Shown here: positions 2,574 through 14,485 of the stretch, in pieces
Numbering within the stretch: position 1 is the first letter of the stretch
Layout of the letters: every line of letters starts with the position of its first letter
Virus record (IMG/VR): IMGVR_UViG_3300035183_000325
Location: 1-22,370 of that record
Strand: one strand, 5' to 3'
DNA length: 22,370 nt
From: a virus
Program-made: the position numbers and the translations under genes
Notes under the pieces: generated by a model
What the model saw: the letters and a program-made list of their open reading frames with translations, nothing else
What the model was told of the DNA's origin: nothing
The model's database searches: none

Positions 2574-3088
2574 TTACCCGCTGACCTCCTTCAGCCACCG
2601 CTCCCAGTCGCGCCTCTCCGCTTGCGCCACGCGGGCGGCTACCGCCGCATCCAGCAGGCGTTGACGGCGCATCATCTGCGCCGCCGTGAGAAAGTCCCGC
2701 GCCTCCGTCCAGGCCATCTCCATCACGTCCCGGTAGCCGAACCCTGCGTCGACGAGTCCTGCGACCCACTCGTGCCACCAGAGGCGGCCTGCGCCATCCG
2801 CTGCGCCGCCGCGGTGACGATCGGCAGCACACGCCGGACGAAAAAATCCGCGTTGACCTCCAGCACGCGGGCGGCCAGCGTGGCGAGCACGTCTGGCGTC
2901 TGCTCCTCCAGCCACGCGCGCTCCACACGGGCCCCGATCACCGTGGCTTCGATGATCCCGTCGGCGTGCCGCATCATCGCGGCAGCAAGATCACCGGCGG
3001 CGAGCTCCGTTGCGATCGGCTCGATCGCCCGCAGAAACCGCGGCAGGTCGCGCACGCGCACCGGCTCGATGCGGTCCAGATCCATCAC
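2574..3088 (-). CDS. Tail assembly chaperone, long form made by -1 frameshift (GT-type)
   Basis: The upstream frame (3088 to 2723) encodes the short chaperone. A -1 shift at 2840-2846 continues into the frame ending at 2574, giving about 171 residues: 83 from the first frame and 88 from the second. The second frame looks like real protein (LWWHEWVAGLVDAGF, then YRDVMEMAWTEARDFLTAA) but has no ribosome binding site or sensible start of its own. Known biology: many long-tailed phages make a short G and a long GT chaperone that coat the tape measure during tail assembly, and the gene lies just upstream of the tape measure, as here. Shift direction, heptamer frame and position agree; the efficiency is unknown. 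Confidence 0.72.
2723..3088 (-). CDS. Tail assembly chaperone, short form (Mu gp41 position)
   Basis: This 121-residue protein starts MMDLDRIEPVRVRDLPRFLR and has the helical, Ala-rich character of gp41-like chaperones of Mu-type and related phages. Its last 20 residues (SGGTSGSQDSSTQGSATGT) are low-complexity, as expected where a frame is read past the point of normal frameshift. It overlaps the stop of the upstream fibre-like gene by 4 bases (ATGA). It should bind the tape measure protein and be absent from the finished virion; this role is inferred from gene position and the frameshift arrangement rather than from a sequence motif. Confidence 0.75.
   Translation of the reverse strand: MMDLDRIEPVRVRDLPRFLRAIEPIATELAAGDLAAAMMRHADGIIEATVIGARVERAWLEEQTPDVLATLAARVLEVNADFFVRRVLPIVTAAAQRMAQAASGGTSGSQDSSTQGSATGT
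2840..2846 (-). promoter_or_regulatory. -1 frameshift slippery heptamer U UUU UUC
   Basis: On the coding strand the chaperone message reads GAT TTT TTC at codons 81-83. This places T TTT TTC in the zero frame required for tandem -1 slippage of both tRNAs. The next codons in the -1 frame run open to 2574. P2 uses the similar T TTT TTG in its tail gene E. GC-rich sequence follows, so a stimulatory structure is possible, but I have not folded it. Confidence 0.65.
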
Positions 3089-4377
3089 GACCCCACCAGA
3101 TAGATCGCCGGCGCCACACCGGTGCCGGCCGTGAACGTCGCCGGCGCCGGGCTGGCGAGTGTCGAGCCGCTGCCGGCTGCGTACAGATGCGTGATCATGG
3201 TCGTGTTGTTGACGCTCCGACCGAGCGCCGGCTGGACCGAGCCCACTGCCAGCGCGCGCAGTACGGCGGCCGCTGCGCAGATCACGCTCGCCCAGTAGAT
3301 GGTCCCGGGCTGCAGCGTGTAGCTCAGTGTCCCCGTCTTGTCGCCCGTGGTGCCGGTGTCAAGCCCCGTTACGGACGCGAGCAGCTGATCCGGTTCGTCG
3401 CTGCCGGAAACGACGCGGTTGCTGTATAGGCCGACGGATGCCAATCCTGTTGCAGCGGTCGTCACCGAGATACGCAGGCCCGTCAGCGTGATCTTGCGCG
3501 CGACCACCAGAGGAATCCAGTACTGACGCGAGGACGTCATCGTGATGGTCGACAGCGCGGTGCCGTTGACGTCTCCGGCGATTTTCGGGGTGGCCGTGCG
3601 GATGGGCCAGCACATCGTCTGGTCGAGGCCGCGCATCATGATGTCGGTGTAACTGTTCACCGATAGCCCCAGCGCCATGCGGTTCTCGTCGGTCAGCAGA
3701 TACGGCTCGGCCACCCGCAGCTGGCTGGCGATTGCCGCCGAGTCGATCTGCGCTCGCGTGCCGCGTTTGAACTGGATTATTGCCACGTCTTGTCCCCCTG
3801 ATGTGATGTTCCCTGCCGACCAGTCGTCCAGCGTCGGAAGTGGGCTACCAGAATCAGACCGGGCGACGATTGCTGCCTTGCCGGAAGCAAGCGCGGTATC
3901 CGTCGCCGTCAGTTGTGTCGTATTGTTGACGAGCAGCCTGAGCGTGCTGCCTTCGCATTCAAGGGCGAGCGTGAAAGGGGCGCTCGGCGAGTATGTCGTG
4001 CTCGCCAGTACAGTCCGTGTACCGTTGACGACCTTGGCGATCCTGAGTTCTGGCGTTCCCGTGTTGATCCATATCGCCTCGTAGAGCGAATGGTTCGGCT
4101 CATTCACTCCGTTCCAGCGGCACCCGACACCACCAAGCGTGCTGGTCCCCCATCCAATCCCAGTCGCATCGACCGTGACCTCGGCATACTGATCATTCCC
4201 GAGCGTGTTCGCTATCCAGGCGGCCGCGAGATATTCACCGGCGGCGTTTGTCCCACGCACCTTATTTGATCTAACGACAACATCCCCCCAGCCCGGCGCG
4301 ATCTGCTGCCAGTTAGGCGACCCGAGCGTCTCGTCCGCCCGGTTGAAGTTGTCGCTCACTACCTGCTGGCGCGGCAT
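3085..4377 (-). CDS. Fibre/receptor-binding-like structural protein with LamG-like domain
   Basis: The product has 430 residues. Residues 6-190 resemble a concanavalin/LamG-type jelly roll: it opens with DNFNRADETLGSPNW, has a beta-rich core, and contains the repeated-strand segment FTLALECEGSTLRLLVNN. Residues 199-243 (IIQFKRGTRAQIDSAAI ... AEPYLLTDENRMALGLSV) match the RRGT...GEP...TD pattern at the start of many phage tail fibres. Residues 244-430 are Ser/Thr/Gly-rich and probably beta-structured. Start: the ATG at 4377, one base after the stop of the XRE-like gene; the ribosome binding site is weak, so coupling is likely. The likely role is a virion surface protein that touches the host or sugars. 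Unusually, it lies before the tape measure gene rather than after it. Function is inferred from architecture. Confidence 0.6.
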   Translation of the reverse strand: MPRQQVVSDNFNRADETLGSPNWQQIAPGWGDVVVRSNKVRGTNAAGEYLAAAWIANTLGNDQYAEVTVDATGIGWGTSTLGGVGCRWNGVNEPNHSLYEAIWINTGTPELRIAKVVNGTRTVLASTTYSPSAPFTLALECEGSTLRLLVNNTTQLTATDTALASGKAAIVARSDSGSPLPTLDDWSAGNITSGGQDVAIIQFKRGTRAQIDSAAIASQLRVAEPYLLTDENRMALGLSVNSYTDIMMRGLDQTMCWPIRTATPKIAGDVNGTALSTITMTSSRQYWIPLVVARKITLTGLRISVTTAATGLASVGLYSNRVVSGSDEPDQLLASVTGLDTGTTGDKTGTLSYTLQPGTIYWASVICAAAAVLRALAVGSVQPALGRSVNNTTMITHLYAAGSGSTLASPAPATFTAGTGVAPAIYLVGS

Positions 4378-4378
4378 C

Positions 4379-4741
4379 TCATCTGCCCCACATATCCGGC
4401 GGCGTCCACGCACGCGTCCGGCGAGCACGACGGGCGGCGCGTTGCGCCTCGTCTTCTGCCGTGCGGTACATGCGCGCTACACCGTTGGTATCAAGATCGA
4501 GCGCAACGATGCGCTGAGGCAGCAGCCCGGCCAGGTACAGCAGCCAGTCCTCGTCGAGACCGTACAGCAGCGTGGCGGCGCGCACGGCATAGGCCGTCCC
4601 CTCGCGCGACCCGCACTCGATCTGCGACAGATACTGGTCGCTCATCGGCATTCCCCGTCGCGCCAGCTCGCGCGTCACGTCGGCGAGCGACCAGCGCCGC
4701 TGCGTGCGCTGCTGTCGCAGGATCTCGCCCAGCCGGCTCAT
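4379..4741 (-). CDS. XRE-family helix-turn-helix protein inside the tail operon
   Basis: This 120-residue protein has an N-terminal helix-turn-helix of the Cro/CI (XRE) type: RLGEILRQQRTQRRWSLADVTREL, then MSDQYLSQIECGSREGTAYAVRAATLLYGL, residues 3-64. The YLSQIE segment fits the recognition helix. The C-terminal third is Arg/Ala-rich (EDEAQRAARRARRTRAW) and could contact nucleic acid or a partner. It overlaps the stop of the next upstream gene by 4 bases and is one base from the fibre-like gene downstream. It is therefore co-transcribed with tail genes rather than placed with a repressor region. Possibilities are a late regulator, a small cargo gene, or a structural protein reusing the fold. 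Target DNA is unknown. Confidence 0.7.
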   Translation of the reverse strand: MSRLGEILRQQRTQRRWSLADVTRELARRGMPMSDQYLSQIECGSREGTAYAVRAATLLYGLDEDWLLYLAGLLPQRIVALDLDTNGVARMYRTAEDEAQRAARRARRTRAWTPPDMWGR

Positions 4742-5046
4742 GACGCCTGCTGCAGGCGCGAGGCGATGTAACGGATGTGCTCCCGCAGACGCTGCGCGTC
4801 TGCCTCGATCTGCGCGATGCGCTGCGCGTTTCCTTCCCTCAGCGCCCTGATGCTCTTGCGATCAAGCTCGTCCAGCTCGTCGATGATGTCCTGCTGCCAG
4901 GTCTGCGCGTCCTGCATCGTGGCGATGGCGTCTGCTGGTGCGCCGTCGGCGGCAGGGTCCGCGCCCGTGCGCGGCACGCGCTGTGCGATGGCGCGGCCGT
5001 CCTCGTCAGTGCCCGCGATCCAGTACCAGACCGGAACGTCGCTCAT
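4738..5046 (-). CDS. Small coiled-coil protein of unknown function in the tail block
   Basis: The protein has 102 residues. A short N-terminal part (MSDVPVWYWIAGTDEDGRAI) precedes a long predicted helix from about residue 42, rich in Glu, Asp, Arg and Gln with heptad-like spacing (QDIIDELDELDRKSIRALRE, then AQRIAQIEADAQRLREHI). It overlaps both neighbours by 4 bases (ATGA), so it is translated within the tail operon. I recognise no family. A minor virion protein or an assembly factor for the adjacent fibre-like genes is possible. Confidence 0.65.
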   Translation of the reverse strand: MSDVPVWYWIAGTDEDGRAIAQRVPRTGADPAADGAPADAIATMQDAQTWQQDIIDELDELDRKSIRALREGNAQRIAQIEADAQRLREHIRYIASRLQQAS

Positions 5047-5384
5047 GTGCAGTGCCTCCCGTCAGGATCGAACGGATCGAGCAGTTCTGTGCATATCCAT
5101 CGCGCAAGATCGCCGCGCCAGCCGTCATTCACCGCAGACCAGCGCGCGAGCCGCTTGCTCGTCGTCCATTCGCGCGGCAGCTCGGCGAAGACGATCGTGC
5201 CGTGGACGACGTTGACGATGCCGTCGAGCAGCAGCCCGAAGTAGAGCAGCGGGTACCCGATGGCCTTCGCCGCGGGCGTGAGGCGCCCCTGCCGGCGCGC
5301 AGTATCAAGGTGCATGACGGCCAGGTACAGCGGCCATAACGCCAGCGGGAGCAGCAGCGCCGCCACGGTCAGCAGCGCGCGCAT
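5043..5384 (-). CDS. Membrane protein of unknown function
   Basis: The protein has 113 residues. It begins MRALLTVAALLLPLALWPLYLAVMH, a clear N-terminal membrane segment, with a second hydrophobic stretch at about residues 43-68 (GYPLLYFGLLLDGIVNVVHG). The polar C-terminus has Trp and Cys residues (WRGDLARWICTELLDPF). The start at 5384 shares one base with the preceding stop (TGATG). The topology suggests an inner membrane protein expressed late. It resembles small proteins of unknown role found beside phage tail and fibre genes, but I cannot assign a family. Superinfection exclusion or a lysis accessory role are speculative options. Confidence 0.65.
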   Translation of the reverse strand: MRALLTVAALLLPLALWPLYLAVMHLDTARRQGRLTPAAKAIGYPLLYFGLLLDGIVNVVHGTIVFAELPREWTTSKRLARWSAVNDGWRGDLARWICTELLDPFDPDGRHCT

Positions 5385-5839
5385 CAGAAGGTGCCCCCGT
5401 CGACCACGTTGACGTCGAGCGTCACGAATGCGTTGCCGGCGTCCTTTGTCCACGACATTGACGGCCCCATTCGCAGAACGCCGTTGGTGCCATCGGTGCC
5501 CCACAGGTAGCCGCTGGTTCCACCCGAGACGACGGCCACCTTCTCATCCGACGAGCCCGCCGGGATATTCAACGCCGTCTTGAAGGCGTCGAAAGTGATC
5601 TTCTTCTCTTTCTGAGCCGCCGCCTCGCTGGCATCGTGCATGATGATGAGGTCGGCGGTGCCGTCCACTGACGGCATGGTGGCAAGCTGGTCGATGGCAG
5701 GCGTGACCGGAACGCGCGTGGTCGGATCCTTCGCCACGTGCAGGTTGCCGCGGTCGAGCGTGACGAACGGCTCTCCGGCGAGCATGCCGCTCGTCGGCAG
5801 GTTGCTATGGTTTCCGCGCCGCAGTTGCAAGCGTGCCAT
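5384..5839 (-). CDS. Tail fibre N-terminal-like protein (RRGxH...GEP...TD module)
   Basis: This 151-residue product begins MARLQLRRGNHSNLPTSG and continues MLAGEPFVTLDRGNLHVAKD. This is the compact module that opens many phage fibres and receptor-binding proteins, including Mtd-type proteins. The middle has a segment typical of fibre stems (GTADLIIMHDASEAAAQKEK). The end is Gly/Ser/Thr-rich and stops at VDGGTF. It is short for a fibre and may be the virion-anchoring part of a split fibre or a decoration protein. The ATG at 5839 has a GGGGA element 8-9 bases upstream. It sits between a collagen-like mini-protein and a membrane protein. Function is inferred. Confidence 0.68.
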   Translation of the reverse strand: MARLQLRRGNHSNLPTSGMLAGEPFVTLDRGNLHVAKDPTTRVPVTPAIDQLATMPSVDGTADLIIMHDASEAAAQKEKKITFDAFKTALNIPAGSSDEKVAVVSGGTSGYLWGTDGTNGVLRMGPSMSWTKDAGNAFVTLDVNVVDGGTF

Positions 5840-5852
5840 GTTGTTGTCCCCT

Positions 5853-6035
5853 TCAGAAGGTGCCGGCGTCCAGGGTGCCGGTCATGTGCCCCAGGTCGAA
5901 AACGTCAACCTCGAACCCGTGCGGGTCGTAGATGAGCTTCTTCATGTCACCGTCGCCGCCCGGTCCCGGAAGCCCAGGCACGCCGACCTTTACGGTCGTG
6001 GGCTCGCGCACGACGATCTTCACGACATCAGTCAT
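5853..6035 (-). CDS. 60-residue collagen-like virion protein candidate
   Basis: The sequence contains four Gly-X-Y-type triplets (GVPGLPGPGGDGD, residues 18-30), a collagen-like motif used in phage fibres to trimerise. The C-terminus (TGTLDAGTF) resembles the C-terminus of the next gene product (VVDGGTF). The start ATG at 6035 overlaps the upstream gene by 8 bases, with GGAGG 9 bases upstream. The likely role is a small structural or linker piece of the same surface assembly as its neighbours. No family is recognised with confidence. Confidence 0.65.
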   Translation of the reverse strand: MTDVVKIVVREPTTVKVGVPGLPGPGGDGDMKKLIYDPHGFEVDVFDLGHMTGTLDAGTF

Positions 6036-6357
6036 GGCTCATGTCCTCCAGCACAACAAGCGTGTCCTGCTCGTAGGTGCGGCGCAGGCTGCTGGCATGC
6101 GTGACCTCAAGGTCGAAGCGGTAGCTGCCCGGCGCAAGCCCGGTCGCCGAATACGGCACGGTCATGTCGATGCGACCGGCAGCCGGCGTGATCGTGATCC
6201 TGCCGTCCGTGGTGGAGGCCGAGACGACGACGTTGCCGGCCTGGTCGCGCACCTGCAGCCGGGCGGTGGCTCCGGTCAGGTCGATCGCAGCGCCGGCCTC
6301 GTCCGTGAGCAGCCACGCGCGCGTCCACGTGTCGCCGCGATACAGCTTGACGGCCAC
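6028..6357 (-). CDS. Beta-rich baseplate/fibre-associated protein (BppU-like N-domain pattern)
   Basis: This 109-residue protein begins with a GTG codon at 6357 preceded by GAGG 5 bases upstream. The sequence KLYRGDTWTRAWLLTDEAG ... IDLTGATARLQVRD followed by an Ig-like strand pattern (RIDMTVPYSATGLAPGSYRF) is the one seen in N-terminal domains of phage baseplate upper/fibre-attachment proteins and small virion Ig-like proteins. It lies immediately downstream of the tail tube gene, so a protein decorating the tube or linking fibres to it is a reasonable guess. The domain match is by eye only. Confidence 0.65.
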   Translation of the reverse strand: MAVKLYRGDTWTRAWLLTDEAGAAIDLTGATARLQVRDQAGNVVVSASTTDGRITITPAAGRIDMTVPYSATGLAPGSYRFDLEVTHASSLRRTYEQDTLVVLEDMSHD

Positions 6358-6367
6358 ACGCGCCTCA

Positions 6368-7120
6368 TCACGAGCCGGCCTGGATTACACGACCGAACAG
6401 CCCGAGCGGTCCGGTGTCGCTCTTGGTGACGTCGGCCAACACGCGACCATTAAGCGAGAACTTCTGCACGTCGTCGCCCACCAGCGCGAAATCCTGCGCC
6501 GGAGAAAGCTGCACGCGGTACAGATCGACGATCACGCGCGCGTTGTTGTTCGCGGTGTTGAGACCATCGAAGCGCAGCCAGACCTCCGGCTGCCCGGTCT
6601 TGAACATCGCGATCCGCTTCGCCGCGCCGTAGGCGTAGTCGACCTTGAATGGTTGCGTGAACGTGCCGACGTTCAGAAACTCGATCGCACCCTGCTCTGC
6701 GTGCACCTTGTAGTGCGTGCCAGCCGTCAGCGTCGCGGGAGAGGCGGCCGAGTCCTTGACCACCACCGATGAAACGAACTGGTTCGCCAGCAGGTAGATG
6801 TCGCCAGCAGCCGCGCCGGTGGGCAACGTCTCGGCAGTGACGTTGCCGGACGCGACGCTGGTCGTCTGTCCGTACAGCGTCAGTTCGAGGTTCTGGACGC
6901 TGAAGTCCTCCACCGTCGCATTGAACTCGCCGTCCTTGCCGCGGATGAGCTGCAGGTCGGTCAGGCGCTGGCCGGAGTAGGACTCCTTGTGCTCGATCGT
7001 GTCGATCTTCAGCGACACGCGCAGCTCCGGCACGTTGCCGAGCCAGCGCATCGCCAGCGGGTTGCCAGACGTGTCGCGGTTGGCGATGTAGACGCGACCT
7101 TGTCCAGAGAAATACGGCAT
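6368..7120 (-). CDS. Major tail tube protein
   Basis: This 250-residue protein starts MPYFSGQGRVYIANRDTSGN and has the character of siphophage tube proteins: a beta-rich core, an early strand with a conserved target-like segment (LRVSLKIDTIEHKESYSGQR) and a C-terminal strand set (VIVDLYRVQLSPAQDFALVG). A Gly/Ala/Thr-rich insertion sits around residues 90-135. AGGGAG lies about 7 bases before the ATG, inside the end of the preceding gene. It follows the gp37-like terminator gene with no sheath gene between them. At 250 residues it is much longer than a Mu-type tube protein. It should polymerise into the tail tube around the tape measure. Confidence 0.8.
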   Translation of the reverse strand: MPYFSGQGRVYIANRDTSGNPLAMRWLGNVPELRVSLKIDTIEHKESYSGQRLTDLQLIRGKDGEFNATVEDFSVQNLELTLYGQTTSVASGNVTAETLPTGAAAGDIYLLANQFVSSVVVKDSAASPATLTAGTHYKVHAEQGAIEFLNVGTFTQPFKVDYAYGAAKRIAMFKTGQPEVWLRFDGLNTANNNARVIVDLYRVQLSPAQDFALVGDDVQKFSLNGRVLADVTKSDTGPLGLFGRVIQAGS

Positions 7121-10689: not shown

Positions 10690-10933
10690 GCGCCGGCCGG
10701 CGTGGTTAAGCACGACGGGCGTCGCGGCACGTTTGGGGCCGGGCCGCCAGAACGGCCTAGGAACGATTTTGCGGGGCGGGTGGCATCCGAGTACCACCCG
10801 CGCACCGATCGCGGCTCAGCGGCCCGTCCAAACCGTTTGCAAATGGGGTCTGGTGGCGGCGCGAAGCGCTGTCCGATGCCCCGGTCTGGCCGTGGGCGGT
10901 CGCGGCGCGGACGCCGTCACTCGGCCGCCCGCA
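10690..10933. promoter_or_regulatory. Noncoding gap between gpG and protease I; candidate central gyrase site or promoter
   Basis: This is the only gap over 200 bases without a supportable gene. It holds an 8-base inverted repeat (10776-10783 and 10794-10801) and an A/T-richer patch with two nested palindromes, CAAAC-C-GTTTG at 10829-10839 and TTTGCAAA at 10836-10843, in otherwise very GC-rich DNA. Known fact: phage Mu carries its central strong gyrase binding site between genes G and I, the same interval. That this gap serves the same role is inference; a late promoter or operator is the alternative. Confidence 0.4.
10776..10801. repeat. Inverted repeat with 8-base perfect arms
   Basis: Arms GCGGGTGG and CCACCCGC are separated by 10 bases. 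No T-run follows on either strand, so a classical Rho-independent terminator is unlikely. It overlaps the alternative far-upstream GTG start of the protease frame at 10797, which argues against that start. Confidence 0.6.
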
Positions 10934-11464
10934 TCAACGCGCGCGCAGGTGCGCGGCCAGCAGCTGCAGCACCGATGTCCGGTCCGCGTCGGACAGCCCC
11001 AGGAACGGCCGCGGCGGGATGTCGCCCCATGGGATGGGCGCGCCACGGCGGGTGCGGCCGAACTGGCCCTTGCGCGCACCGAACTGTTGCGTGGCGGCGT
11101 ATGCGAGGCTCGATCCGACCTCGACGCCGCGCGGGATGAGCCTGTAAGCGATCTCGGAGGACAGCCGCCGGGTCTCGCCGATGAGGGGTTTCTTCGCGGC
11201 GGCCCGCGCCTGCCCGCGCTTCGTGAGCCCGCCGCCGCGGCGGAACGAGCCGCCGAAGCGAGAAAGGTAGCGCAGCACCGTGACGGGGCTGTTGGGCGCC
11301 CAAGGGGTGCCATCGGGCGCGCGGCCCGTGGCGAAGCGCTGTCGGGTCGACGCGACCAGCAGCTCGCCGATGTCGCGCAGCGCCGGGGCGGGATCCTGCA
11401 CGCGCCTAAGGAGCTCGCTCAGGGCGGCGCGCACCGCCTGGTCGTCGATTTCAATGCGGATCAA
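10934..11464 (-). CDS. G: Virion morphogenesis protein gpG (tail completion)
   Basis: This 176-residue protein matches the Mu gpG family. Features are a helical N-terminus (MIRIEIDDQAVRAALSELLR), the segment IGELLVASTRQRFATGRAPD followed by GTPWAPNS, and the C-terminal IPPRPFLGLSDADRTSVLQL motif typical of phage virion morphogenesis proteins. The start codon is TTG at 11464, with GAGGA 6 bases upstream, which fixes the start. It lies between the MuF gene and the protease, the Mu order. In Mu the protein acts in head-tail joining or tail completion. Confidence 0.9.
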   Translation of the reverse strand: MIRIEIDDQAVRAALSELLRRVQDPAPALRDIGELLVASTRQRFATGRAPDGTPWAPNSPVTVLRYLSRFGGSFRRGGGLTKRGQARAAAKKPLIGETRRLSSEIAYRLIPRGVEVGSSLAYAATQQFGARKGQFGRTRRGAPIPWGDIPPRPFLGLSDADRTSVLQLLAAHLRAR

Positions 11465-11504
11465 GTGCTATCCTCATTCCTGCGTGGCCGGGTGCATCCC
11501 GTCG

Positions 11505-11521
11505 TCGTGGTCATACCACGA
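11505..11521. repeat. 7-base hairpin between MuF and gpG genes
   Basis: The arms TCGTGGT and ACCACGA flank a 3-base loop in the 61-base space between the two genes. No U-run follows. It could slow ribosomes or RNases and alter relative gpG level, but no function is shown. Confidence 0.5.
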
Positions 11522-11525
11522 AGCG

Positions 11526-12812
11526 TTACGGACGTCTGATGGGGGGACGGCCACGTATCCACAGCGTTTGCAGCGCGAGCATGCGGCGCCTTGCACGCAC
11601 CTCGAACGCGGCCCAGTACTCCAGATCGCCGAAGCGCTTGACGAGGCGCACCACGGGACGACCTATACCAGACGTGCCTCCGTATTCGAGGCGGTCCGCC
11701 TCGGCAATGAGGCGTGGCAACAACGCATAGTCCTCGACCGTGACGCCGGTCTGTCCCGACCTGGCTTCCGCCGCGTCATCGCCGTGATCCTTGGCCACCT
11801 TGCGCACGGTCGACGCATCGATCGTCCAGTCATAGATCTGGCTGCGCACCGCTTCGACCCCCGTCATATCGGCGATCGCGCGCGCTTCGGCCTGCGTGAG
11901 CAGCCCAAGCGTCTGATACTGCTGCACGATGACCGGCCCCGGAATCGCGGCGTCGTTGCGCACGCCGAGCGCGCGCTCGGCGTAACGGCGCGCCGCCTCG
12001 GCGGTACCCGGCAAGCGGCGGATTGCCAGGGCAAGCGCATCGCGCATGCGCTCCGGCACTTCGCTCATGTACGCCTTGGCCATCTCATAGGGCCAGGCGA
12101 TGGTCTTGGCGGCCACGGCACGCGCGATTTCGTCGGCCACCGTCGCCCCCGGCATATATCCCCATCCGCGGTCGACGCCCGCCGGCTCGCCGTTCGGTCC
12201 GGTCTCGAGCCAGGACGGATCGAGCGGCTTGTCTGGATTGCCGCCGATCAACCTCGCGCCGGCCCGGCCGTTGGCTCCCACCACACTGCACCGGCACCCC
12301 CAGCCATTGGGCGGATAGTGCGTCTGCCAGAAGGGATGATCGGCCGGCAGCGTGAGACCGTCCCAGGCCAGGTGCAGCGGCCGCGGATGCAGCACCGAGT
12401 CCGAATGCCGGTACACCCACAGTGCAAAGCCGCCCTGCTTGAGCTGCGCAAGCCGCCCGGCGGCGTAGCTCGTGGCGGCATTCGTCGTGTAGATCACGCG
12501 CGTGCGCCAGTTGCGCGGGCCGCGGTAGGACCAGCCGTGTCGCTCGACGATGGCGTCGAACTGCGCGCGGAACCACTCGATGCCCCTGCCGTCGGCGATC
12601 GCACCATCGACGGCGCCCGCCAGGTCCGCGAGTAGATCGGCCTTGGCCGCGCCGGCCACCATGAAGGCGCGGTCGTGGGCTGCCTTCCAGATGTCGTCCC
12701 AGCGCTCGGTGGGCACCAGATTGCCCAGCTTGCCGCGGAAGAAGGCGAGCTGCTCGTCGAAGGGCCGGCGGAATACGCCGGCGACGGCCGGATCATCGGT
12801 GGATGCGCTCAT
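11526..12812 (-). CDS. F: MuF head morphogenesis protein with C-terminal nuclease-like domain
   Basis: The product has 428 residues. The MuF domain is clear at residues 100-178: TTNAATSYAAGRLAQL, then RHSDSVLHPRPLHLAWDG, then HPFWQTHYPPNGWGCRCSV with the invariant CRC pair (C173, C175). MuF proteins sit near the portal and are injected or needed for head assembly. From about residue 330 a separate domain begins (TIDASTVRKVAKDHGDDAAE ... RLVKRFGDLEYWAAFEVRAR). Its layout matches the phage-Barnase/EndoU/ColicinE5-D/RelE-like nuclease domains known at the ends of MuF proteins. The start ATG at 12812 has GGGAG 7 bases upstream and overlaps the zinc-finger gene by 20 bases. Nuclease activity is inferred. 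Confidence 0.92.
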   Translation of the reverse strand: MSASTDDPAVAGVFRRPFDEQLAFFRGKLGNLVPTERWDDIWKAAHDRAFMVAGAAKADLLADLAGAVDGAIADGRGIEWFRAQFDAIVERHGWSYRGPRNWRTRVIYTTNAATSYAAGRLAQLKQGGFALWVYRHSDSVLHPRPLHLAWDGLTLPADHPFWQTHYPPNGWGCRCSVVGANGRAGARLIGGNPDKPLDPSWLETGPNGEPAGVDRGWGYMPGATVADEIARAVAAKTIAWPYEMAKAYMSEVPERMRDALALAIRRLPGTAEAARRYAERALGVRNDAAIPGPVIVQQYQTLGLLTQAEARAIADMTGVEAVRSQIYDWTIDASTVRKVAKDHGDDAAEARSGQTGVTVEDYALLPRLIAEADRLEYGGTSGIGRPVVRLVKRFGDLEYWAAFEVRARRRMLALQTLWIRGRPPIRRP

Positions 12813-12987
12813 GCGCCCGCTCCCAGTCGTCGCGACAGCTCACGTCGCACCAGCGCAGCGGCGCACGCACGGGCTCGCCGCACCACAGGCATCGACCCGT
12901 GGGCTGCGGCCCTGCGCGCCGGCGCAACTGCAGCAGCCGCCCCATCTCGATGGCGATCCGTTCGTCGGCGATATCCGCCTCATCCAC
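12793..12987 (-). CDS. Small zinc-finger protein between portal and MuF genes
   Basis: This 64-residue protein has a four-cysteine pattern C33-x2-C36 ... C47-x3-C51 (CLWCGE ... RWCDVSCRDDWE), consistent with one zinc site, after a helical N-terminus ([20 protein letters not shown]). The GTG start at 12987 has GGAGT 6 bases upstream and overlaps the portal stop by 8 bases; it also overlaps the MuF start by 20 bases. The tight overlaps on both sides support real translation. I do not know its function; a similar small zinc ribbon is seen near early regulators of other phages, but here it sits in the head operon. Confidence 0.75.
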   Translation of the reverse strand: MDEADIADERIAIEMGRLLQLRRRAGPQPTGRCLWCGEPVRAPLRWCDVSCRDDWERAHERIHR

Positions 12988-14485
12988 CGGAAGACTCCGC
13001 GCGCACGTCGAACCGGCCCGCGAGATCCGCCACCGCGAAGGCGGCCTGCATGACGCGCGCCACGTCCTCCGATGGCAGATCGCCATACGCAGCGAGCAAA
13101 GAATCGCGCAGTTCTTGCAGCGACTGCGCCTGCTCGACGAGCGCGCGAATGCGATCGAGCCAGTCGGCAAGCATCGGCGCGGCCGCCAGCTCGATCCGAT
13201 CTGCCAGCAGATCGGCCGGATGCTGCGTGCCCGCAGGCTCGGCAGCACGGACCTCGGATGCCGCGCCGCGCCCGGCCTGCTCGCGCGCCGACACTGCGGT
13301 TGCGCCCGCCTCGGGGGGCGTTTGCGCCGCATTTGCGGCCGCCGTGTAGTCGTCGCCGTAGATGCGCGCCGCCGCCTCGGGCTTCAGATGCCAGCCGATG
13401 CGCGCGAGGATCTCGTCGCGCTGGGCACGTGACAGCAGATCCTCCGGGTCGTCCATCTCGCGGTAGATGCGCGGGTACGCCGCGCCGGGCAGCTCGTAGT
13501 CGACGAGCCACCGCACCCACGTGTGGTTGGCGCTCTCGCAGACGAGATCGGCGTCCGCGGCCACGATGTCCTCGCGCACGTCCCAGTGCACCTGCGCCTG
13601 CGCGCGCGAGCTGCCGTCCTCGGTGGTCATGGTCTGGCCGAGCACGATCTTGGCGATCGCCCTGTCCCAGTAGCCCATCCATTCGCCGTAGCTGGCGGTG
13701 CCGCCGCGCGATGCCTCGATCAGCTCGATGGCCATGCCCTCGGGCAGGATCACGCCGGCATCGGTCTGGATGGCCTGCACCGCCTCCAGCAGCCGCGCGC
13801 GCTCGCCGGCGTCGGTGCCGGCCGGAAATCTTCCGACCGCGGTCGGCGCGCCGAACTTTTCCAGGAACGTCGCCCAGAACCGCGCGCCCTGGCGTTTGAA
13901 CCAGACCGGCCAGTACAGCGCCTGCGCGAGGCCGCGTCCGTAGGGCTCGTCGTGGTGGCTCGCGCCCACCGCCGCCACCCAGAACTTGCGCTGCGGCACG
14001 CGCTCGCCGTGCGGTCTGCTGCTGGTGCGCAGCAGCAGCGCGCCGTCCGGCGCGAAGGCAAAGCGCGCGCGGTCGCGCACGCGGATGTCCTCGATCGCGA
14101 TCCCGTCGCGGTCGACCGCCCACATGATCTCGGCCACGGCGAACCCGTAGAACCGCGCGTACAGCATCTGGTCGCTGACGGCGTCCCAGTCCACCCGCTC
14201 GAGCGTGGCGCGGACGAGCTCAGCCGCCTGGCGGTCGACGCGCCGCTCGCCGCCCGGCTCGACGGCCCACGGCCGGCGCACCACGGCCATGCGCCGCTGC
14301 GCGAAGGTGGCTGCCACCTGGTCGTCGCGCAGCAGCTCCTCGTAGCCGCGCCAGCCGCCGGCCACCGGCAACACGCGGTCGGTCGGCGGCAGCCACGGCA
14401 GCGCATCGACGTAGCCGCGCGTGATGTCGCGGCCGTCGCGCGTGGTGGCGATCTCCGTGAGGTCGGGTCGACGATCAGTAGCCAT
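12980..14485 (-). CDS. Portal protein (Mu gp29-like, DUF935)
   Basis: This 501-residue protein belongs to the DUF935 portal family. It has a characteristic N-terminal region ([20 protein letters not shown]), a central domain with [20 protein letters not shown] and [20 protein letters not shown], then [14 protein letters not shown] and the [20 protein letters not shown] and [17 protein letters not shown] motifs. The portal forms the dodecameric gate for DNA entry and exit. The start ATG at 14485 has AGGAG 8 bases upstream and overlaps the terminase stop by 11 bases. The last 130 residues are Ala-rich and variable. Confidence 0.95.

Follow-up and report, generated by a model that had tools for sequence, protein, structure and literature searches.

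The long tail fiber of bacteriophage T4 consists of several proteins joined end to end. The present analysis concerns a cassette of seven minus-strand genes, designated p1 to p7, which lies between the major tail tube gene and the tail assembly chaperone gene in the IMG/VR virus record IMGVR_UViG_3300035183_000325, a stretch of 22,370 bases referred to here as the window. The cassette likely encodes side fibers of the virion, and its genes and their relatives suggest that these are probably optional extra fibers built in segments, with p1 as the anchor and with p2, p3 and p7 connected in a plug-and-socket manner. Fibers set which host a phage binds, yet the genes of this cassette are mostly unannotated.

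Among the described systems, phage DT57C carries a dodecameric LtfC ring whose sheets accept short N-terminal strands of the fiber protein LtfA (PMC10713586), and residues 1-100 of BppU form a dodecameric ring in mycobacteriophage Douge (PMC13033339). In Sf14, gp30 and gp31 form neck whiskers, and their genes follow the portal gene (PMC11821841). The neck passage structure of lactococcal 936 phages is a collar with fibers ending in carbohydrate-binding domains (PMC6669499), and in JBD30, gp47/gp48 make up the tail fibers and gp54 a tripod (PMC11445458).

The LtfC–LtfA pair of DT57C, of the T5 family, is like p1 in the fold of its ring subunit (DT57C chain 8hqz_T and T5 chain 7qg9_J, presumably LtfC judging from their length and place), but shows no sequence match; moreover, the cassette fiber is split into several small proteins and starts with a collagen-like rather than a helical part. 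BppU of Douge and TP901-1 shares its fold with p1, the TP901-1 matches standing level with non-phage immunoglobulin (Ig) folds. Unlike BppU, p1 is a single domain separate from the adhesin; a preliminary description of the window had called it BppU/Ig-like, of which the Ig-like part was upheld by the model and the fold search and the BppU-like part by fold only; Pfam returned no BppU family (E up to 0.1). An Sf14 neck chain, presumably a whisker protein, also matches p1 in fold, and the after-portal site given in that report is likewise used by p1 cassettes; the whisker chains are dimers threading up and down, and the available portions of the report mention no collagen-like stalk. The 936 neck passage structure, likened here by description only, is one protein of ~500-900 residues, unlike the cassette. 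DMS3, a Casadabanvirus and relative of JBD30, shares its tube, chaperone, tape measure and DMS3-42/-44/-45/-48 backbone with L015, a close relative of the window that bears the cassette, but its chaperone follows the tube directly, without a cassette. From gene order, JBD30 gp47/48 probably correspond to DMS3-42/43.

Sequence and fold of the proposed fiber genes

The seven open reading frames (ORFs) between the tube and chaperone genes, running from 6357-6028 through 4377-3085, were confirmed. Co-linear cassette homologues occur in L002, L003 (without p4), L004/L007, L006 (whose record ends after p5) and L009/L015. The ratio of nonsynonymous to synonymous substitution rates (dN/dS) of all seven genes, each compared with 4 to 9 relatives, lay between 0 and 0.31 throughout, with the tube gene as a yardstick at 0.07-0.27. 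Together, the co-linear homologues and these ratios indicate that the cassette genes are real rather than chance ORFs, and all seven are under purifying selection. Genes were called with an in-house script, which chose the incorrect strand for some regions of L131, L132 and L134 and began p7 only at 3714; the full length of p7 is matched at 68-89% by the homologues in L002, L003 and L015, with a dN/dS of 0.15-0.23. A search of all seven proteins against NCBIfam returned nothing informative.

The proposed anchor-ring subunit p1 (6028..6357) matches phrog_1084, a family of unknown function (E 1.1e-14, residues 4-107). A p1 model from 15 relatives reached a predicted local distance difference test score (pLDDT) of 93.1, and its best fold match was the Douge baseplate chain 8zdo_a (residues 9-106, Z 11.3). 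The DT57C baseplate chain 8hqz_T (Z 10.9) and the T5 tail tip chain 7qg9_J (Z 10.8) matched over 103 residues at 2.3 Å, and further matches comprised the Sf14 neck chain 9c39_J (Z 10.0; presumably the whisker protein), the Bas63 connector (9.8), the NF5 baseplate (9.0), TP901-1 BppU 4v96_AA (8.8), the 80alpha baseplate (8.5) and the N-domain of TP901-1 ORF48, 3uh8 (8.1). In its modeled fold, p1 resembles phage fiber anchors, and we claim no membership in those families; it is probably an anchor of the ring type. Among sampled Pseudomonadota genomes, phrog_1084 was detected in 30 of 299, compared with none of 14 control genomes, and in several of these loci its genes precede fiber-like ORFs by eye. 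A peptide-pattern search of GTDB contigs found no p1 relatives. Streptomyces phage Patelgo carries a p1 homologue, gp30, annotated as a tail fiber and separated from the major capsid gene upstream by a single gene; the following gp31 has 692 residues and a start resembling p2.

The second gene, p2 (5853..6035, dN/dS 0-0.2), encodes a strand-like N-terminus, a short collagen-like stretch and the C-tail DAGTF, and is proposed as the stalk base. It had been described as a collagen-like 60-mer; the window shows only the short run GLPGPGGDGD. Of 41 genes that follow p1, 29 contain a collagen-like run, compared with 34 of 618 background ORFs. The adaptor p3 (5384..5839) has an RRGN-type N-module and the C-tail DGGTF. 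Its earlier reading as a fiber N-module finds a counterpart in Pfam Mtd_N (PF18454), at 21.7 bits under a cut-off of 26.3. Apart from this sub-threshold match, p3 hit no family in PHROG at E up to 0.1 or in NCBIfam at E up to 0.01, although it recurs in dozens of IMG/VR contigs. Among named phage records a single phage (two records) matched p3, at 46% over residues 6-90.

To describe the neighbors of p3, the best 80 of 141 candidate IMG/VR relatives (68-95% identity) were kept, of which 74 had an intact p3 ORF of at least 140 residues; combining records that shared p3, the preceding gene and the start of the next gene left 63 distinct loci. These loci share ancestry, and the figures count loci, not independent events. 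A p1-like gene lies two genes upstream of p3 in 41 of the 63, the clade of the window included, as judged with a p1 profile that was extended by the ORFs it retrieved, first 37 and then 44. Of 62 preceding genes, 56 carry GTF among the final seven residues and the other 6 end in GEF or GSF, so that a D-x-G-(T/E/S)-F ending is present in 62/62; GTF tails were found in 0 of 450 other forward ORFs shorter than 400 residues. In p3 itself, GTF falls within the last seven residues in 48 of the 63 loci.

The N-module was identified in the gene after p3 in 52 of 60 cases, or 15 of 19 sequence clusters, using a profile with five-fold cross-validation over clusters. Among control ORFs it was found in 10 of 454, all ten being the second gene after p3, and 57 of 63 p3 N-termini match the same next-gene profile. 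The module of the window's p7, left out of the profile, matches it at E 4.9e-11. The count is based on this cross-validated profile in place of two weaker tests, in which the p3 N-terminus alone as a profile detected 9/61 next genes against 3/454 controls (E 0.01), and a pattern composed after inspection of the data detected 49/61 against 12/454. In locus L138 (1079-6650), a Thr/Pro-repeat protein and glycosyltransferase-like genes, identified by eye, directly precede a p1-p2-p3 cassette; its p3 shares 78% identity with that of the window.

A second class of tail and module (class B, with the p3 type as class A) was seeded with a 188-residue protein from L013, giving 10 distinct loci of 15; L240, L245, L248 and L094 were left out because the script called no intact class-B ORF, and L242 was merged with L241. 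By eye, L094 fits class B. All 10 preceding genes and all 10 adaptors end in W, against 5 of 130 background ORFs, and the next gene starts with a matching K..LP..YLV module in 10/10, against 0/111, the module pattern having been composed after the sequences were inspected. No W tail occurs among the class-A rows and no GTF tail among the class-B rows. With the class-A profile, the class-B protein of L013 scored just E 0.5, and the 230-residue protein of L013 and the 261-residue protein of L093 were not listed. Two further tail classes, in L016/L097 and in L093, were recognized by eye only.

The proposed receptor-binding part, p7 (3085..4377), comprises an exchangeable N-terminal beta domain, a KRGT module and a C-terminal domain. 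Residues 4-163 match phrog_2804, a virion structural protein family (E 1.6e-6), with further matches to phrog_18251 and phrog_25864; for the LamG-like label given earlier, Pfam returned no LamG match up to E 0.1. In the p7 of L007, the N-terminal part is replaced by another stretch, whereas residues 194-431 are 90% identical, and L005 carries the N-terminal part of the window's p7, at 75%, in a different context. Such a swap is expected of a receptor-binding protein. The C-terminal domain is found again toward the end of the cassettes in L013, L016 and L093; a search of IMG/VR with this part retrieved three contigs only, all already found. At the first codon of the KRGT module, all five homologues inspected, that of the window among them, have GTG or ATG preceded by a GG-rich site; the codon in the window is GTG at 3784-3786. 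From this arrangement, p7 looks as though a further part had been fused onto the start of an older, independent fiber gene. Translation may still begin there, at the KRGT module, and would then yield a short p7 (3085..3786); a glycine-rich linker could produce the GG-rich bases by chance.

Genomic position of the cassette and the rest of the tail

The cassette is bordered upstream by the major tail tube gene (6368..7120; phrog_807, E 3.1e-86), whose product contains an Ig-like domain, and downstream by the tail assembly chaperone gene (2723..3085; phrog_1442, E 8.2e-20), both on the minus strand. As the preliminary description had supposed, it occupies a site where other phages have a direct tube-chaperone junction. 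The junction was readable in 58 of 70 IMG/VR loci found with the tube and in 23 of 24 GTDB junctions. Among the former, 51 were direct and 7 held 1.8-3.5 kb, in all seven cases with p1 just after the tube; two of the seven, L009 and L015, look like one phage from two samples. At a tube identity of at least 60%, 15 junctions were readable, 7 with the cassette and 8 direct, which indicates that the cassette is optional. Three further records (L003, L006 and L008) contain p1 and end before the chaperone. In GTDB genomes, 22 of the 23 readable junctions were direct, and the exception, L126, lacks p1. This locus, from a Thiobacillus metagenome-assembled genome, was considered as a further fiber insert and rejected: by eye, its gap carries three tyrosine-recombinase-like ORFs in a row (10744-14300), a different insertion at the same junction.

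The earlier suggestion to search for the same gene order elsewhere was productive, since it was found in other phage contigs. Variant cassettes begin with p1, usually followed by a small collagen-like gene, and differ in the middle, which holds proteins of 187-188 residues in L013, L020, L088 and L094, a 170-residue protein in L016, and in L093 a 261-residue protein matching tail-fiber and head-decoration families; the variable member in L097 matches tail-fiber families.

The position of p1 itself varies. It directly follows the tube gene in the clade of the window and in L085, L087, L088, L091-L094 and L096. Mostly by eye, it was also placed after the portal gene (L095, L169 and L190), near protease/capsid or head-completion genes (L097, L172, L198 and L222), and, in L098, downstream of the tape measure. 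When 26 neighbors on the upstream side of p1 were scanned against PHROG, they fell into portal, head closure, terminase small subunit, tail fiber and tail fiber assembly families, with 1-2 members each. Because p1 cassettes also follow portal, terminase, head and fiber genes, the place of the gene does not tell the place of the product. Of the earlier proposal of tube-side fibers or tail decorations, a fiber or decoration cassette therefore stands, while attachment to the tube does not follow. The first 34 residues of p1 also match at L099:5591-5890 and L100:7001-7102; in L099 they head a 99-residue ORF, otherwise unrelated, between terminase-like and portal-like genes, as if this were a recombination point.

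It had also been implied that the cassette stands in for genes normally found after the tape measure. The L015 record does not fit this, as it keeps a DMS3-type set there, with homologues of DMS3-42, -44, -45 and -48, a 27-residue match to DMS3-43 and the start of a further fiber-like gene. The cassette-free L064 has the same set minus that final gene. Judged from this gene content, the cassette is an addition to an ordinary DMS3-like tip and not a relocation. Replacement of a right-end fiber was considered and dropped, since the cassette-free L133 runs from hub to lysis genes just like the cassette-bearing L130. By gene size and order, L013 and L016 appear by eye to have a lambda-like tip. 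Within L015:17615-19422, two neighboring genes after the tape measure both match phrog_687, 'structural protein', like a paralogue pair.

Proposed assembly and competing explanations

In the proposed assembly, p1 would act in the manner of LtfC or of the ring-forming part of BppU: its Ig-like subunits probably form a ring on the virion, located at the neck, at the end of the tube or at the tail tip. With its strand-like N-terminus, p2 would add strands to the p1 sheets and thereby begin the stalk. The C-tail of p2 (D-x-GTF) would dock onto the N-module of p3, and that of p3 onto the KRGT module of p7, which would carry the exchangeable host-binding domains; p4-p6 would be accessory. We give even chances to docking in the order p2, p3, p7. 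Virion presence, ring formation, strand donation, docking order and receptor binding are steps that we infer.

A broader and more tentative suggestion is that p1, p2 and p3 could constitute a widespread, unnamed side-fiber kit joined by a tail-and-socket code, in which a D-x-GTF tail would pair with an RRGT/KRS-type module and an xxW tail with a K..LP..YLV module. Such a kit would be self-contained and accept any fiber with the right N-module, so that unrelated phages could carry it in head, neck, tube or tail-tip blocks, and kit-bearing phages would exchange host-binding tips at the sockets. If the tail-and-socket rule is true, assembly order and compatible tips become readable from sequence in phages known from metagenomes only, and phrog_1084 gains a function as a fiber anchor. 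A literature search found no paper on the DGGTF/DGGTFN tail, on phrog_1084 or under segmented or branched fiber terms, and no wider absence is claimed.

Several observations weigh against segmented side fibers on a p1 anchor. The cassette products are known here from their genes alone. In the fold search with p1, phage rows below about Z 8.8 are interleaved with non-phage Ig folds, and a p1 profile of 15 sequences, searched against PDB chains at E up to 1, retrieved 26dk_M ('structural protein', E 5.5e-5) and 9lb6_A only, with no T5 or DT57C chains. The p7 model, at a pLDDT of 46.7, is unusable. Of the 63 p3 loci, 22 show no p1-like gene among the four genes preceding p3 (5 of these lie close to the edge of a contig, the other 17 do not), and in the window's own clade p4 or p5 directly follows p3. 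The next gene carries no detectable N-module in 8 of 60 cases, or 4 of 19 clusters. Moreover, only two classes are well sampled, both samples are adaptor-seeded and their rows share ancestry, and something besides docking could account for the conservation of the C-tails. The last points, together with the missing modules, also favor a rather unlikely alternative in which the cassette encodes ordinary fibers without a docking code, the shared C-tails and N-modules reflecting common descent or recombination at conserved ends. The near-universal GTF tails of the genes preceding p3, set against their absence from the other ORFs, speak against it, and docking is preferred chiefly because tail and module differ together between the two classes.

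The position of p1 directly after the tube gene in the window's clade, and the Ig-like decoration domain that the JBD30 tube protein itself bears (PMC11445458), would suit a simpler arrangement, in which p1 decorates the discs of the tube as an Ig protein and the remaining products are adhesins of their own on the surface, with no segmented fiber. We regard this as quite improbable, given that p1-headed cassettes elsewhere follow portal, terminase, head or fiber genes and that consecutive products share tails and N-modules. It is very unlikely that the cassette is instead a moron-like insert with functions in the lysogen rather than the virion, as the membrane-like p4 and the weak helix-turn-helix (HTH) match of p6 might suggest. 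A scan of the cassette found no promoter-like site, and its sole terminator-like site is on the non-coding strand; other phages, L163 and L013 among them, have genes of the p1, p2, p3 and p7 types but lack p4-p6, and cassette members elsewhere match fiber families.

Accessory genes and other features of the window

The three genes between p3 and p7 are regarded as accessory, as L003 lacks p4, L006 has a broken copy of it and the scan gave no promoter-like site. The labels of p4 (5043..5384) as a small membrane protein and of p5 (4738..5046) as a coiled-coil-like small protein go back to the preliminary description and were retained by eye. Relatives of p4 adjoin fiber genes in TJ1, P26059A and L131, and the terminase gene in MW202455. 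In the Curvibacter phages TJ1 and P26059A, an apparent p3-p4 pair was rejected, the 156-residue neighbors being not p3 and, by eye, tail-fiber assembly-like. The dN/dS of p5 is 0.07-0.21, and among phage records it had one match, weak and partial. For p6 (4379..4741; dN/dS 0.10-0.18), first labeled XRE, the HTH character finds a match in HTH_31 at 24.9 bits, under a cut-off of 27, and no match was found among phage records.

Family matches indicate that the window derives from a Mu-like phage with minus-strand transcription. They include the MuB C-terminal domain, Mu gp27, terminase, Mu portal, Mu F, tail S and lysozyme families, along with a Gam-like protein whose match is below the cut-off. 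Past this Mu-like block, the gene order is tube, cassette, chaperone and a tape measure truncated by the end of the record. At the DNA level, named phages closely match 0-3% of the window, and its tube protein is ~40% identical to those of DMS3 (40.7%) and D3112.

A short ORF at 2574-2723 directly follows the chaperone gene and has counterparts of 49-51 residues in several relatives; it is possibly a frameshift extension of the chaperone of the lambda G/GT type. Elsewhere in the window, the Mu F-like protein at 11526-12812 has a C-terminal PBECR3 nuclease-like domain (E 3.5e-12).

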